A DNA stretch of 64,000 bases from Massilia cavernae (GTDB taxonomy: Bacteria > Pseudomonadota > Gammaproteobacteria > Burkholderiales > Burkholderiaceae_D): the NCBI RefSeq assembly GCF_003590855.1, contig NZ_QYUP01000119.1:1-64000 (forward strand), written 5' to 3'. Every line of letters starts with the position of its first letter. The first letter of the stretch is position 1. The notes beneath the pieces were generated by a model, which saw nothing but the letters and a program-made list of their open reading frames with translations, made no database searches and was not told the origin of the DNA. Of this stretch, positions 44,393 through 48,271 are shown piece by piece. The translations under genes and the position numbers were made by a program.

Positions 44393-44965
44393 GTGCCCAA
44401 AATCATCATCTCGCACGGCGACACAGTGGAGCAGGAGGTCGAGCTGACCAAGCCGCGCATGACCATCGGACGCCATCCTCACAACGACATCGTGATCGAC
44501 CACCGCGCCATCAGCGGCCAGCATGCCGCCATTACTTTCGATGGCGGCGTTACACAGGTAGAAGACCTGGGCAGCACCAATGGAACCTTGGTCAATGGCC
44601 AGCGGATCGCGCGCCAGACCCTGGCCGACCGCGACGTTATTACCTTGGCACTGCACACCTTGAGCTATGTCGGCACCGCAGCTCCCCCGCAAGCCCCTGC
44701 TGCCCCGCTGAAGGCGTCGGTCGAGGTTATGAACGGCCCCAACGCCGGCAAAACCCTGAAACTGGTGAAACCACTTACCACCCTCGGCACCCCCGGGGTA
44801 ATGGTCGCAGTGATTGGCCGCCAGGCGGAACGATTTTTTGTCGACCAGGTCGAAGGTACTGCAGCGCTGCTCGTCAATGGGCTGCCCACTGAGCAACGCG
44901 AGCTTCTCGACGGAGATACGATTGATCTCTCCGGAACCCAGATGAAATTTTCTGTCACATCTTGA
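44393..44965 (+). CDS. FHA-domain protein (one canonical, one degenerate FHA)
   Basis: 190 residues from GTG 44393 (GGAG 9 nt upstream); ATG 44366 is an alternative. Residues about 20-95 form a forkhead-associated phosphothreonine-binding domain with MTIGRHPHNDIVIDHRAISG, QHAAITF and DLGSTNGTLVNGQRI. After a Pro/Ala-rich linker a second domain repeats the pattern weakly: NGPNAGKTLKLVKPLTTLG, VIGRQAERFFVDQ, LVNGLPTEQRELLDGDTIDL. The second lacks the G-R-x-x-x-x-D and S-x-x-H motifs. It is cytoplasmic and without a kinase domain. The neighbouring pilA hints at a role in surface regulation, but this is not shown. Confidence 0.8.
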   Translation: MPKIIISHGDTVEQEVELTKPRMTIGRHPHNDIVIDHRAISGQHAAITFDGGVTQVEDLGSTNGTLVNGQRIARQTLADRDVITLALHTLSYVGTAAPPQAPAAPLKASVEVMNGPNAGKTLKLVKPLTTLGTPGVMVAVIGRQAERFFVDQVEGTAALLVNGLPTEQRELLDGDTIDLSGTQMKFSVTS

Positions 44966-45007
44966 TCCGTGACAAATTGCGCCTCGGCAACTGACAAAAA
45001 ATGTCAG
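44955..45007. promoter_or_regulatory. PilR-like upstream activator sites of pilA
   Basis: Three TGTC/GACA boxes precede the pilA promoter: CTGTCAC (about 44954), GTGACAA (about 44970) and the palindrome TGACAAAAAATGTCA (44993-45007). PilR of Pseudomonas binds repeated (C/G)TGTC boxes at this distance upstream of the pilA -24 element, so these are candidate enhancer sites. Confidence 0.6.
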
Positions 45008-45080
45008 TAAACCGGACGAAAAATGGCGGTTTTGATCGGTTTTGATATCGCCGAGCTAATAAAAACGGGTTGAAACGAGC

Positions 45081-45096
45081 TGGCACGCCAATTGCT
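45081..45096 (+). promoter_or_regulatory. Sigma-54 (-24/-12) promoter of pilA
   Basis: TGGCACG-CCAA-TTGCT fits the RpoN consensus TGGCAC-N5-TTGC(A/T) with the invariant GG and GC, 74 nt upstream of the pilA start. Confidence 0.88.
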
Positions 45097-45154
45097 CATA
45101 TGGAAGAGCGGTAGCACTGCACAACACAAATTAACCCCTGACGGAGAGACCACC

Positions 45155-45601
45155 ATGAAATCGATGAAAATGATGAAGAAACAAGCACAAGCCGGCTTCA
45201 CCCTGATCGAACTGATGATCGTTGTTGCAATTATCGGTATCCTGGCAGCGGTAGCAATTCCTGCATACCAGAACTACGTCGCCAAGTCGAAGTTCGCTGC
45301 AGCACTGGGTGAAGTCTCGGCGGCCAAGACTCCGTTCGATGTCATGATGAACGACGGCGCGGGACCCGCTGCAATCGGCGATCTGCCAGTCCAGGCATCG
45401 ACCGCTAACTGCACCCTGGCACTTGTTGCTGCAAATGGCGGCCTCACGTGCACGATCGTCGGCGGTCCAACTGCTGTCGCAACCAAGGTTATCACCCTGA
45501 CCCGTACGGCTGCTGGCGCATGGACCTGCGCAGCTAACGTCCTGGCTGCAGACCAGACCAAGATCATCGGCCCAGCAGCTGTCTGCACCGCCAACGGCTA
45601 A
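45155..45601 (+). CDS. pilA: Type IVa major pilin (PilA)
   Basis: 148-residue prepilin. A short basic leader [14 protein letters not shown] is cut by PilD before Phe, leaving [20 protein letters not shown] as the hydrophobic stalk with Glu5. The globular part is Ala/Thr-rich with four cysteines (ANCTLA, LTCTIV, WTCAAN, AVCTAN), so two disulfides including the C-terminal D-region loop are likely. It starts with GGAGAGACC upstream, under a sigma-54 promoter, and ends with its own terminator. Adhesion and twitching motility are the expected roles. Confidence 0.95.
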
Positions 45602-45631
45602 TATCAGCCCGCTGCTCACGCAGCCATCCTG

Positions 45632-45665
45632 AAAATCCCGCGTGCGCAAACACGCGGGATTTTTC
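45632..45665 (+). terminator. Rho-independent terminator of pilA
   Basis: ATCCCGCGTG-cgcaaa-CACGCGGGAT, a perfect 10-bp stem followed by TTTTC, 31 nt after the pilA stop codon. Confidence 0.92.
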
Positions 45666-45734
45666 TATGGGCGAACGGTTTTTGATGTTCGGCGTATCTT
45701 GCAACCACGACGTGCGGAAATTTGGCCGCGATAC

Positions 45735-45826
45735 CGACAAAAAATGTTATGTCGGCGACGAGAATTGGCGATATGGCCATCCGTAAAGGCAGAGCGATTC
45801 CACAAATTGCTGGCACGCCATTTGCT
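45735..45826 (+). promoter_or_regulatory. Second sigma-54 promoter with PilR-like box, no pilin downstream
   Basis: TGGCACG-CCAT-TTGCT at 45811-45826 is a second strong -24/-12 element, nearly identical to the pilA one. Seventy-six nt upstream, CGACAAAAAATGTTATGTCG (45735-45754) repeats the GACAAAAAATGT box found 88 nt upstream of the pilA promoter. Downstream, before the ArsR gene, only a 25-codon frame without a ribosome site (ATG 45828) is seen. The transcript could lead into the arsR operon or be a small RNA. The rest of the 371-bp pilA-arsR gap holds the pilA terminator and the arsR promoter. Confidence 0.7.
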
Positions 45827-45901
45827 GATGAAGTCAGCAGGTAACGGCTTCAACCAGCCGCTCGCCGCTATCGTGATGACCCGACTGGAGCGAGGTCGCT
45901 C

Positions 45902-45942
45902 TTGACTTCCTTTCACGTGTAAACTATTCTTTACACGTGAAA
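45902..45942 (+). promoter_or_regulatory. Sigma-70 promoter with perfect palindromic operator
   Basis: TTGACT (45902-45907), a 17-nt spacer and TATTCT (45925-45930) form a good -35/-10 pair. TTTCACGTGTAAA (45911-45923) and TTTACACGTGAAA (45930-45942) are perfect 13-bp inverted arms with a 6-nt spacer. They cover the spacer and flank the -10, the expected position for autorepression by the ArsR-type regulator encoded 30 nt downstream. Confidence 0.88.
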
Positions 45943-45972
45943 GTAAAACCCCAACCACCCGAAGGAGATCAA

Positions 45973-46269
45973 ATGCTGGCGATGCTGTCGGCGCTTGCCA
46001 ATCCGCACCGGCTGCGCATCATCGCGGCGCTGGCGGAGGGCGGACGCAACTACGTCAGCCAGCTTGCGCGCGAGATCGGCATCAGCCGGCCGCTTTTGCA
46101 TTTGCACCTGCAAAAGCTCCAGAACGTCGGCCTCGTCACCAGCCAGCTTGAACTGTCGGACGGTGGCAAAGCGTTTAACTACTTCGAAGTAAGCAACTTC
46201 AATTTCGAGCTCACGCCAACCGCCATCGCGGAAGCCGTGAAGACCCTGACCATCAACCTTGAGAAGTAG
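45973..46269 (+). CDS. ArsR-type winged-helix repressor
   Basis: 98 residues. MLAMLSALANPHRLRIIAAL opens an ArsR winged helix; the recognition helix lies in YVSQLAREIGISRPLLHLHL with the wing at VGLVTSQLELSDGGKAFNYF. No CxC metal site is present, so it probably senses a non-metal signal. GAAGGAG lies 6 nt upstream of ATG 45973. It is followed by two small membrane-protein genes at 8 and about 45 nt spacing, forming a three-gene operon under the palindromic operator. Confidence 0.85.
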   Translation: MLAMLSALANPHRLRIIAALAEGGRNYVSQLAREIGISRPLLHLHLQKLQNVGLVTSQLELSDGGKAFNYFEVSNFNFELTPTAIAEAVKTLTINLEK

Positions 46270-46277
46270 GAGTTCCT

Positions 46278-46535
46278 ATGCCTGAACATGTGTTCTTCAT
46301 CACCCTCAGTATCTTCTTCGGCACGATCTTGCTCATCTTCGGCATGAAGTATTTCTCGGCCATCCAGCAGGCCAAGGCGCGCAGTGCGAGAGATGAGGCC
46401 TACCGCGATATCGCAGCAAAAGCGGTAGCGGCACAGGCTGAAACCGCGGCGACGCTGGCTGCCGTCAATGCAACGCTCGCGGACCTCAAGACCCGCCTGG
46501 CGGCAGTGGAAAAGATGCTGCGCGAAGTTGAGTAG
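46278..46535 (+). CDS. Small membrane protein with C-terminal coiled coil
   Basis: 85 residues, not recognised. One N-terminal membrane span (VFFITLSIFFGTILLIFGM) is followed by an Ala/Glu/Lys-rich amphipathic helix (about 30-85) with heptad spacing in AAVNATLADLKTRLAAVEKM. GTAGGAG lies upstream of the ATG. The single-span plus coiled-coil layout suggests a subunit that oligomerises or recruits a partner at the membrane, likely the next gene product. Confidence 0.75.
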   Translation: MPEHVFFITLSIFFGTILLIFGMKYFSAIQQAKARSARDEAYRDIAAKAVAAQAETAATLAAVNATLADLKTRLAAVEKMLREVE

Positions 46536-46580
46536 TACTTGGCCGTCTACCGTCTAACTAACCGGAAAGGAAGTGATGCC

Positions 46581-46997
46581 GTGTCTGAAGTCAGCACCTT
46601 GAGGCTCTATCTGTTGAGAGCCATGTATCTGTTAATCGCGGTGGGCCTGGCCCTGAGCATTTGGCCATCGATCATCTTCCCGCCGTCCGTCACCGCCAAT
46701 TCGAGCACGGTGGTCCGCTCGCTGCTCGGCGCGCTCGCGCTGATGTCCTTGCTTGGCTTGCGCTATCCCCTCCAGATGCTCCCGTTACTGATGTTCGAGC
46801 TGGTCTGGAAAGTCATCTGGATCGTCGCGTTCGCTTTGCCAATGTGGATGGGGCCCGGCCTCGATGCCTACGCCAGCGAAACCTTGTTCGCCACCGCCAT
46901 GGGCGTGATCCTTGTTCCGCTGGTGCTGCCGTTTGGTTACATACTTCGCCATTACTTCAAGGCACCTTCGACGCCAGCGAAAACCGCACCCAGCTAA
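46581..46997 (+). CDS. Four-span membrane protein of unknown function
   Basis: 138 residues from GTG 46581 (AAGGAAG upstream); the frame is open slightly further. Four hydrophobic segments are visible: YLLRAMYLLIAVGLALSIW, VVRSLLGALALMSLLGL, MFELVWKVIWIVAFALPMW and TAMGVILVPLVLPFGYIL. No catalytic motif is seen. It is the third gene of the ArsR operon and so presumably part of the response that the repressor controls. The stop codon is followed at once by an RHS fragment. Confidence 0.75.
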   Translation: MSEVSTLRLYLLRAMYLLIAVGLALSIWPSIIFPPSVTANSSTVVRSLLGALALMSLLGLRYPLQMLPLLMFELVWKVIWIVAFALPMWMGPGLDAYASETLFATAMGVILVPLVLPFGYILRHYFKAPSTPAKTAPS

Positions 46998-47192
46998 AAT
47001 TGGGCGCTATTCCTTACGCAAACTCGATCAGCCCGACCAGCAACCGGCTGATGATCACGGCACGACCCGATCAAAGTACCAGTAATGCTTACGACGCGGC
47101 CGGCAATCTTGTTGGCGACGGCGTGAACACTTATGTCTACAACGACCGCGGGCGTCTCAAGAGCGCCAGCAACGGACTCGTCCGGTGCTGCA
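46998..47192 (+). pseudogene. RHS/YD-repeat core fragment
   Basis: A stretch without its own start encodes the typical RHS-core sequence IPYANSISPTSNRL, then YDAAGNLVGDGVNTYVYNDR, then GRLKSASNG, and then degenerates. This is the YD-repeat stretch near the toxin junction of RHS proteins. Nothing of the remaining large protein is present. It directly precedes a small gene with the position of an RHS immunity gene. Confidence 0.8.
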
Positions 47193-47227
47193 TATGGAGC
47201 CGGCGGTGCTGGACAGGCGGAGTGCGA

Positions 47228-47656
47228 ATGTCGTCGCTGATTGATGCACTAAAATGCTTACTTCTCCCAAGCGCTAAGTTGTCACCGCTTGAGCGGGTTA
47301 TTTTCGACGCGGTACGGGTGAAGCTGTCGACTCCGGATGCTGAACTTTGGGCAAAGCAGCTCCAAGTCATCAATAAGATTCACCGAAGTCCAGACAAACG
47401 CGAAGTGAATTTGTTTGTGATGCGTAATGGTAAGTCAGAGTTCCCTCGCGAATTATGCTTTGAAAAGGACGGCGAATTCAAAGTCGCTGTGGTCGATCTC
47501 ATGGCAAAGAGAAGTGCAACGAAGTTACGAGCCCGAGTATGGTGCGTAAATGGTCACGTGTTCTCAATCGAGTACAAGACTTCCTCCCGAGTATTCGAGG
47601 AAATGGCGCAGGGTGAATGGGAAGTCAGTTGTCACATTGAAACTAATCCTTCCTGA
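47228..47656 (+). CDS. Orphan immunity-like protein downstream of RHS fragment
   Basis: 142 residues, no family recognised. ATG 47228 has GGAG 6 nt upstream. The sequence is soluble, mixed alpha/beta and charged (ALWAKQLQV-type helices, then VNLFVMRNGKSEFPRELCFE and HVFSIEYKTSSRVFEEMAQG). Its base composition is visibly lower in GC than the neighbours, a sign of transfer. A small gene directly after an RHS core is normally the toxin's immunity gene; here the toxin part is lost. Confidence 0.65.
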   Translation: MSSLIDALKCLLLPSAKLSPLERVIFDAVRVKLSTPDAELWAKQLQVINKIHRSPDKREVNLFVMRNGKSEFPRELCFEKDGEFKVAVVDLMAKRSATKLRARVWCVNGHVFSIEYKTSSRVFEEMAQGEWEVSCHIETNPS

Positions 47657-47764
47657 TCACCGACAGCTCTTGGTCTGGTCCCGTTTGAGCGGTGATGTCG
47701 CGGGCGCCTCTCCCTGAAGTGGAAAACCGAAAAATGGACTTGGTGGGCCAAGCTATGGTTCCGC

Positions 47765-48271
47765 TTACACGTCAGCCGACCAATCTCCCGACTTGCCGCC
47801 ATGCTTTTCGAGCACCCTGACGTCGGTCATCACCATGCCCCGGTCGACGGCCTTGCACATATCGTAGATGGTCAGCAGCCCAACCTGCACAGCAGTCAGT
47901 GCCTCCATCTCCACGCCGGTCTTGCCGACAGTCTCGACTTGCGCGCGGCAATGTACCTTCGACCCCGCCTCATCGACCTCGAAATCGACCGCCACCCGCG
48001 TCAGCGCCAGCGGATGGCACAAGGGCACCAGGTCGCTGGTCCGCTTGGCTGCCATGATGGCCGCGATGCGCGCGATCCCCAGCACATCGCCTTTCTTCGC
48101 CGTGCCGGACACCACCAGGGCCAGCGTTTCCGGCTTCATCCGGATCGTGCCGGCCGCCACCGCAATCCTGTGGGTCTCGTTCTTGGCGGCTACGTCCACC
48201 ATATGTGCCTGGCCGCCGGCGTCGAAATGGGTCAGGCCGCCGGAGCCGGCAGGGGTATCGCTTGTCGTCAT
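47765..48271 (-). CDS. moaC: Cyclic pyranopterin monophosphate synthase (MoaC)
   Basis: 168-residue enzyme that converts 3',8-cyclo-GTP to cyclic pyranopterin in molybdenum-cofactor synthesis. Motifs: [71 protein letters not shown], and [13 protein letters not shown]. The start [12 protein letters not shown] was chosen over an upstream TTG. It diverges from the bepA-like gene by 84 nt. Confidence 0.95.

Follow-up and report, generated by a model that had tools for sequence, protein, structure and literature searches.

Between the pilin gene pilA and an ArsR operon of Massilia cavernae lies a second sigma-54 promoter that is not followed by a pilin gene. Judged from its letters, this orphan is a genuine, intact-looking pilin-type sigma-54 promoter without a pilin. 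It probably is the relic promoter of a second pilin that was lost, with the ArsR operon now standing behind it. The window that we analysed, a stretch of 64,000 nucleotides, is part of contig C23 in a draft genome of 5.44 Mb (201 contigs, 93.65% complete). The gene order around the promoter is sucC, sucD, the gene of an FHA protein, pilA, the orphan promoter, arsR, the genes of an 85-aa and a 138-aa protein, an RHS-like fragment, a 142-aa ORF, moaC and an M48 peptidase gene (assigned by Pfam; sucC was named by us).

Layout of the pilA and orphan promoters

The features of the two promoters are as follows.

44993-45004, + strand: pilA box 1, GACAAAAAATGT, within CTGACAAAAAATGTCAG (12-mer pattern search)
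45015-45028, + strand: pilA box 2, GACGAAAAATGGCG (local alignment)
45081-45096, + strand: pilA sigma-54 core, TGGCACGCCAATTGCT (core pattern search)
45155-45601, + strand: pilA, type IV pilin of 148 aa (Pfam Pilin and N_methyl)
45632-45663, + strand: hairpin with a T tail 3′ of pilA, a likely terminator (inverted repeat I2; T tail by eye)
45736-45747, + strand: orphan box 1, GACAAAAAATGT (12-mer pattern search)
45757-45770, + strand: orphan box 2, GACGAGAATTGGCG, 21 nt after box 1 (local alignment)
45811-45826, + strand: orphan sigma-54 core, TGGCACGCCATTTGCT (exact match to TGGCACG-N4-TTGCT)
45828-45905, + strand: 25-codon frame, not regarded as a gene (the predicted +1 lies about 9 nt past its ATG)
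about 45837, + strand: predicted +1 of the orphan promoter (placed at the usual distance from the -12 element)

From box 1 through the core the orphan element spans 45736-45826. It lies about 730 bp from the pilA promoter and repeats its order of box, box and core, and in both promoters box 2 starts 21-22 nt past the start of box 1. The distance from box 1 to the core is 88 nt at pilA and 75 nt at the orphan, a difference of 13 nt; from box 2 it is 66 nt and 54 nt, a difference of 12 nt. The original prediction, made from this DNA alone, had placed a sigma-54 promoter TGGCACG-N4-TTGCT at 45811 with an upstream box in a pilA-like layout, and the exact core and the 12-mer found at both promoters bear this out. 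Its spacing difference of 12 nt holds for box 2, but not for box 1. The core at 45811 also matches the consensus core of sigma-54 pilin promoters, TGGCAC(G)-N4-TTGC, exactly, and the boxes at 75 and 54 nt are phased as in such promoters. As had been predicted, no pilin follows: there is none within about 130 nt of the core, and the next gene is arsR, at 45973.

The 12-mer GACAAAAAATGT occurs twice in the 5.44-Mb draft, at the pilA and orphan promoters only, and not at all on the other strand. The reversed pattern had no match in the draft, and 0.07 matches are expected under an i.i.d. model. The exact core TGGCACG-N4-TTGCT had six matches in the genome against an i.i.d. expectation of 1.4. Because 58 matches appeared when one mismatch was allowed, compared with 45 for the reversed control, the sigma-54 core by itself proves little. 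The other exact matches precede four ORFs, which are nrtA-like (Pfam NMT1_2), prpB (PEP_mutase), the gene of an exported protein (no Pfam family) and a narK-like transporter gene (MFS_1); the names nrtA-like, prpB and narK-like are our own, given beside the Pfam matches.

The stretches upstream of the pilA and orphan cores aligned better with each other than all of 1000 dinucleotide shuffles. When box 1 was left out, 67 of 1000 shuffles aligned as well. It had been suggested that the element is a duplicate of the pilA regulatory region, which is right for the layout but not for the sequence. The orphan's upstream stretch had a score of 29 with the resident pilA promoter and of up to 32 with pilin promoters of other genera, and a recent copy of the resident promoter was rejected on these scores. 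With the boxes masked it scored 18 against the resident promoter, and the best of the 72 distinct pilin promoters compared reached 23. As a benchmark, the pilA promoter scored 116 against its ortholog in the near relative G002.

Helical phasing of the boxes

We sought a box together with a core at 58-88 nt in 294 genomes, with matches in 32, and at 89-119 nt and 28-57 nt in 288 genomes each, with matches in 24 and 8, respectively. Loci L163-L226 were read, and a match in G264 was left out. The distinct pilin promoters, including that of the resident pilA, gave 45 spacing values, to which some promoters contributed two. The values fell at 35, 45, 54-55, 62-67, 74-77, 86-88, 97-100, 109-110 and 118 nt. 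In a circular test of the 45 values with the period left free from 9 to 13, the best period was 10.7 (R = 0.80), and none of 5000 uniform draws was as high. The 19 distinct values alone gave R = 0.69, again with 0 of 5000 uniform draws as high, and this figure is the safer one because related promoters are not independent. The 75 nt of the orphan lies 42-50 degrees (about 1.5 nt) off the mean phase, and the 88 nt of pilA lies 27-35 degrees off on the opposite side. The box spacing of the orphan is in phase with the pilin promoters of the family.

The matches that did not precede pilins gave 19 distinct spacing values, made up of 12 from an exported protein, one from the orphan and six others. 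Some of these six are out of phase and may have arisen by chance. The exported protein, of about 120 aa, belongs to genus g6 (L168-L172, L195-L206), where its gene has a boxed sigma-54 promoter in front of it, with a spacing of 87 or 97 nt. There are 17 such loci before near-identical ones are removed, leaving the 12 distinct values, and a BON domain was found in the one member that was tested. This protein is a candidate for a target of the pilin regulator other than a pilin. At other loci, too, genes that do not encode pilins have boxed sigma-54 promoters before them, which counts against a lost pilin at the orphan.

For the family, the spacings amount to a rule that the distance between a pilin-promoter box and the sigma-54 core changes by about 10.7 nt at a time, and such a rule would help to find genes under common control. 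Among the titles and abstract openings covered, we found none on the helical phasing of PilR boxes or on pilin arrays of Massilia.

The pilin locus in relatives

Twenty pilin loci from 19 genomes, 16 of them genus relatives, were fetched around pilin matches. The interval from sucD through pilA to moaC holds 2-8 pilin signatures in 10 of the 16 relatives (G001, G003, G005, G006, G007, G009, G012, G014, G015 and G016), where the counts for G003, G007 and G009 are lower bounds, since the interval is split or cut. G012 has eight signatures, one of which, judging from its translation, is apparently broken. Five relatives (G002, G004, G008, G010 and G011) have a single pilin in the interval, and the remaining one, G013, could not be assigned. 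Across the 20 loci, all 32 sigma-54 sites with a strict core face a pilin and a looser core added 10 sites without one, in a set of loci that were chosen for holding pilins and so are not a neutral sample for this association. Some pilins in the 20 loci have no scored sigma-54 site. None of the 20 loci contains arsR.

The orphan promoter occupies the place of the second pilin in the array of the genus. It resembles the tandem pilin arrays at the sucD-FHA-moaC locus in place, in order and in having a boxed sigma-54 promoter at the second-pilin position; it differs from them in that this second promoter faces an ArsR operon and not a pilin. In this genus, pilin genes stand in tandem in the sucD-FHA-pilA-moaC interval, and several of them have a boxed sigma-54 promoter of their own. 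A second pilin would have been lost in this lineage, and the ArsR operon, about 1.1 kb long, would have come to lie directly behind the promoter that was left over. Three readings had been offered for the element, of which the loss of a second pilin has the best support, considering the arrays in 10 of 16 relatives, the in-phase boxes and the absence of arsR from every other pilin locus examined.

The three nearest relatives (G002, G004 and G008) have one pilin each, with no further sigma-54 promoter at this locus. Because of this, the second pilin must either have been acquired and then lost again in this lineage, or have disappeared from theirs too. The original prediction had named relatives without the element as grounds for its refutation, and these three genomes lack it, which speaks against deep conservation. 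A conserved regulatory RNA fits this less well than does a relic or an element specific to the lineage. When the region 45640-45888 was compared with the 16 genus relatives at E 0.01, only the surroundings of the core, 45809-45848, had matches.

No recognisable remnant of a pilin was found downstream of the orphan promoter, where peptide and DNA comparisons with pilA did no better than shuffles (2321 of 5000 and 149 of 1000, respectively). The 25-codon frame was considered as a remnant of a pilin start and rejected, as its scores were at shuffle level. Relics decay and this promoter looks intact, so the loss would be recent or the site would be under selection.

The ArsR operon and its position

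Behind the orphan promoter are the following features.

45889-46997, + strand: ArsR block, located elsewhere in the nearest relatives (blastn)
45902-45930, + strand: sigma-70-like promoter of the ArsR operon, TTGACT-17-TATTCT (pattern scan)
45910-45943, no strand: perfect palindrome with 14-bp arms, likely ArsR operator, overlapping the sigma-70-like promoter (inverted-repeat search)
45973-46269, + strand: ArsR-family regulator of 98 aa (Pfam HTH_5)
46278-46535, + strand: 85-aa protein, no family above cut-off (by eye, its N-terminus is hydrophobic and a coiled coil is apparent)
46581-46997, + strand: 138-aa hydrophobic protein, third gene of the operon, no family (found near arsR in relatives)

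The operon had been predicted to have a sigma-70 promoter of its own, and the sigma-70-like promoter overlapping the palindrome agrees with this. A similar arrangement of promoter and palindrome was seen by eye in most of the 10 relative loci, of 17, whose start could be located. Like other autoregulated operons of the ArsR type, this one encodes an HTH_5 protein, has a palindrome over its promoter and looks similar in relatives. It differs from them in lying behind a sigma-54 promoter. Its regulator is above the Pfam cut-off for HTH_5 and scored 48.0 bits with the NCBIfam metalloregulator model, for which the cut-off is 55.

Blastn homology to the ArsR loci of the nearest relatives begins at 45889-45901 and ends at 46963-46975. 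The homologous block takes in the sigma-70-like promoter and the palindrome and leaves out the sigma-54 promoter. Arrival of the sigma-54 promoter together with the ArsR block was rejected, since the homology starts downstream of it.

In G002 and G004 the operon is flanked by the genes of a histidine kinase and an M61 peptidase, and in G008 it adjoins the M61 gene. The source genome has its kinase and M61 genes side by side on contig C188 (by Pfam), with about 110 bp between them and no operon. The M61 gene adjoins the ArsR operon only in these three relatives, among flanks of about 1.5-4 kb compared. The M61, kinase and FHA proteins place the source genome outside the trio, and moaC, M48, sucC and pilA do not resolve its position relative to them. 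Because arsR occurs at no other pilin locus examined, its position behind pilA is, by parsimony, taken as the derived state. The odds of a lost pilin do not depend on the direction in which the operon moved.

Gain of the operon from a foreign source is possible but not needed. The identity of its three proteins with those of G002, G004 and G008 is 77, 74 and 77%, and with those at L020 in G012 it is 74%, so the margin is small. Megablast against a plasmid collection gave no match, and no convincing flanking repeats of a mobile element were found. The RHS-repeat-like fragment behind the operon (47006-47224 of the window, Pfam match below cut-off) is a hint of an insertion-prone interval. The 142-aa ORF at 47228-47656 had no family above cut-off and no relative among the loci compared.

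It is extremely improbable that the ArsR operon stands next to the pilA region only through an error in the assembly of the contig. The draft does consist of 201 contigs and is 93.65% complete, but the genes that come next, moaC and that of the M48 peptidase, have the same order as in relatives. In addition, this draft shows no gap at the site where the nearest relatives have the operon, and two wrong joins would be needed, unless the operon was never there.

Possible output of the orphan promoter

If the promoter works, RNA polymerase would start at about 45837, make a leader of 136 nt and pass the ArsR operator to reach arsR. Transcription from a live promoter should extend into arsR because no terminator was seen between them. 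Such read-through would make the ArsR operon partly dependent on pilus signalling, and operator-bound ArsR could act as a roadblock to the sigma-54 transcript.

This leads to the possibility that the orphan promoter has been kept in order to serve the operon, giving arsR and two small membrane-protein genes a second, pilus-linked promoter driven by a PilR-like activator and sigma-54. We regard this as doubtful. The core is intact and the boxes are in phase, and in one other genus boxed sigma-54 promoters precede the exported protein family at 17 loci. A pattern scan of 44900-47800 found two terminator-like sites, both on the - strand, and by eye there was no T run from 45840 to 45973; however, the scan did not flag the hairpin after pilA and is therefore not sensitive. 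Against such service, the operon is accompanied by its own sigma-70-like promoter and palindrome both here and in relatives, and the palindrome would form a strong hairpin that may be a roadblock in the leader. Moreover, no consensus sigma-54 site was found up to 500 bp upstream at any of 80 ArsR loci elsewhere, among the matches listed from a public genome set, 3 of the 80 holding less than 500 bp upstream. A pilin signature was likewise absent from the fetched stretches of all 80, among the matches listed. The proposed tie between the ArsR operon and piliation thus has the lack of a visible terminator on its side and the 0 of 80 loci against it. It would be a possible by-product, private to this lineage. 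A fuller version has the left-over PilR/sigma-54 promoter capturing an arriving ArsR membrane-protein operon, so that sensing of the pilus subunit would drive the operon and the operator would serve both as repressor site and as roadblock or leader hairpin; such live rewiring is unlikely, though within reach.

A PilR-controlled small RNA or short peptide as the product of the promoter, another of the readings proposed, is very unlikely. In its favour, a strong promoter is followed by 136 nt without an obvious gene, and when 45837-45990 was folded, it did better than 199 of 200 shuffles (z = -3.39). However, the longest helix of this fold is the 14-bp hairpin of the ArsR operator palindrome. 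The only Rfam match was far below its gathering score and lay over the end of pilA, the pattern scan found no terminator-like site on the + strand, and beyond the core there was no match in the 16 genus relatives. The predicted 25-codon frame is present, but it begins before the predicted +1.

The relic promoter of a lost second pilin remains our preferred explanation. It would catch a step of regulatory evolution in which a strong activator-dependent promoter outlives its gene and an unrelated operon comes to stand behind it. The case is one of ordinary promoter orphaning, unusually well documented.

Regulators

In Pseudomonas aeruginosa, PilR acts with sigma-54 at pilA (PMC6058289), and the sections of that paper covered give TGT-N11-AGA with nearby GTCT elements as hallmarks of the PilR site. 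The orphan shares with PilR/sigma-54 pilA promoters of P. aeruginosa and others a sigma-54 core and upstream sites of the TGTC/GACA type, and its genome has a PilS/PilR-like pair and sigma-54 activators. It differs in having no pilin behind it, and the box sequence of this group was not met in the parts of the literature covered. Ten strong and four weak matches to sigma-54 activators were found in the genome. On contig C125, a receiver-AAA-Fis protein follows a kinase whose PilS-like transmembrane match does not reach the Pfam cut-off. By its architecture the receiver-AAA-Fis protein appears PilR-like, and it would be the kind of activator that acts at the boxes; no PilR model was among the NCBIfam hits shown.

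The domains of rpoN (PF04552 and PF04963) had no match in the 93.65%-complete draft, and both were present in all three nearest relatives. The missing match counts against our preferred explanation. We infer that an assembly gap is likelier than a true loss, because ten activators and several canonical promoters have been kept. If rpoN were truly absent, the orphan promoter would be dead.

Similarity of the core to nrtA-like promoters

The matches around the core raise the question of whether it was derived from an NtrC-type promoter of nitrate assimilation and not from a pilin promoter. A stretch of 22 nt around the core recurs without a mismatch in front of nrtA-like genes in 4 of the 16 genus relatives, within their promoters; two more have gapped similarity before nrtA-like genes, and one has 27 nt at 90% before a narK-like gene. 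On the other hand, both boxes upstream belong to the pilin type and keep the helical phase, the identical core letters also occur in a pilin promoter of another genus (L163), and the nrtA-like promoter of the source genome itself is different. The nrtA-like genes of the relatives are preceded by a GGTGC...GCACC-like site, which we take to be of the NtrC type, and by eye this site is absent upstream of the orphan. Such a derivation is extremely doubtful.

The nrtA-like promoter and leader look alike in six Massilia genomes (L071-L074, L078 and L079), except for the upstream part of L073. A GC-rich hairpin was seen by eye in these leaders. The gene at L075 is a different one, narK-like.
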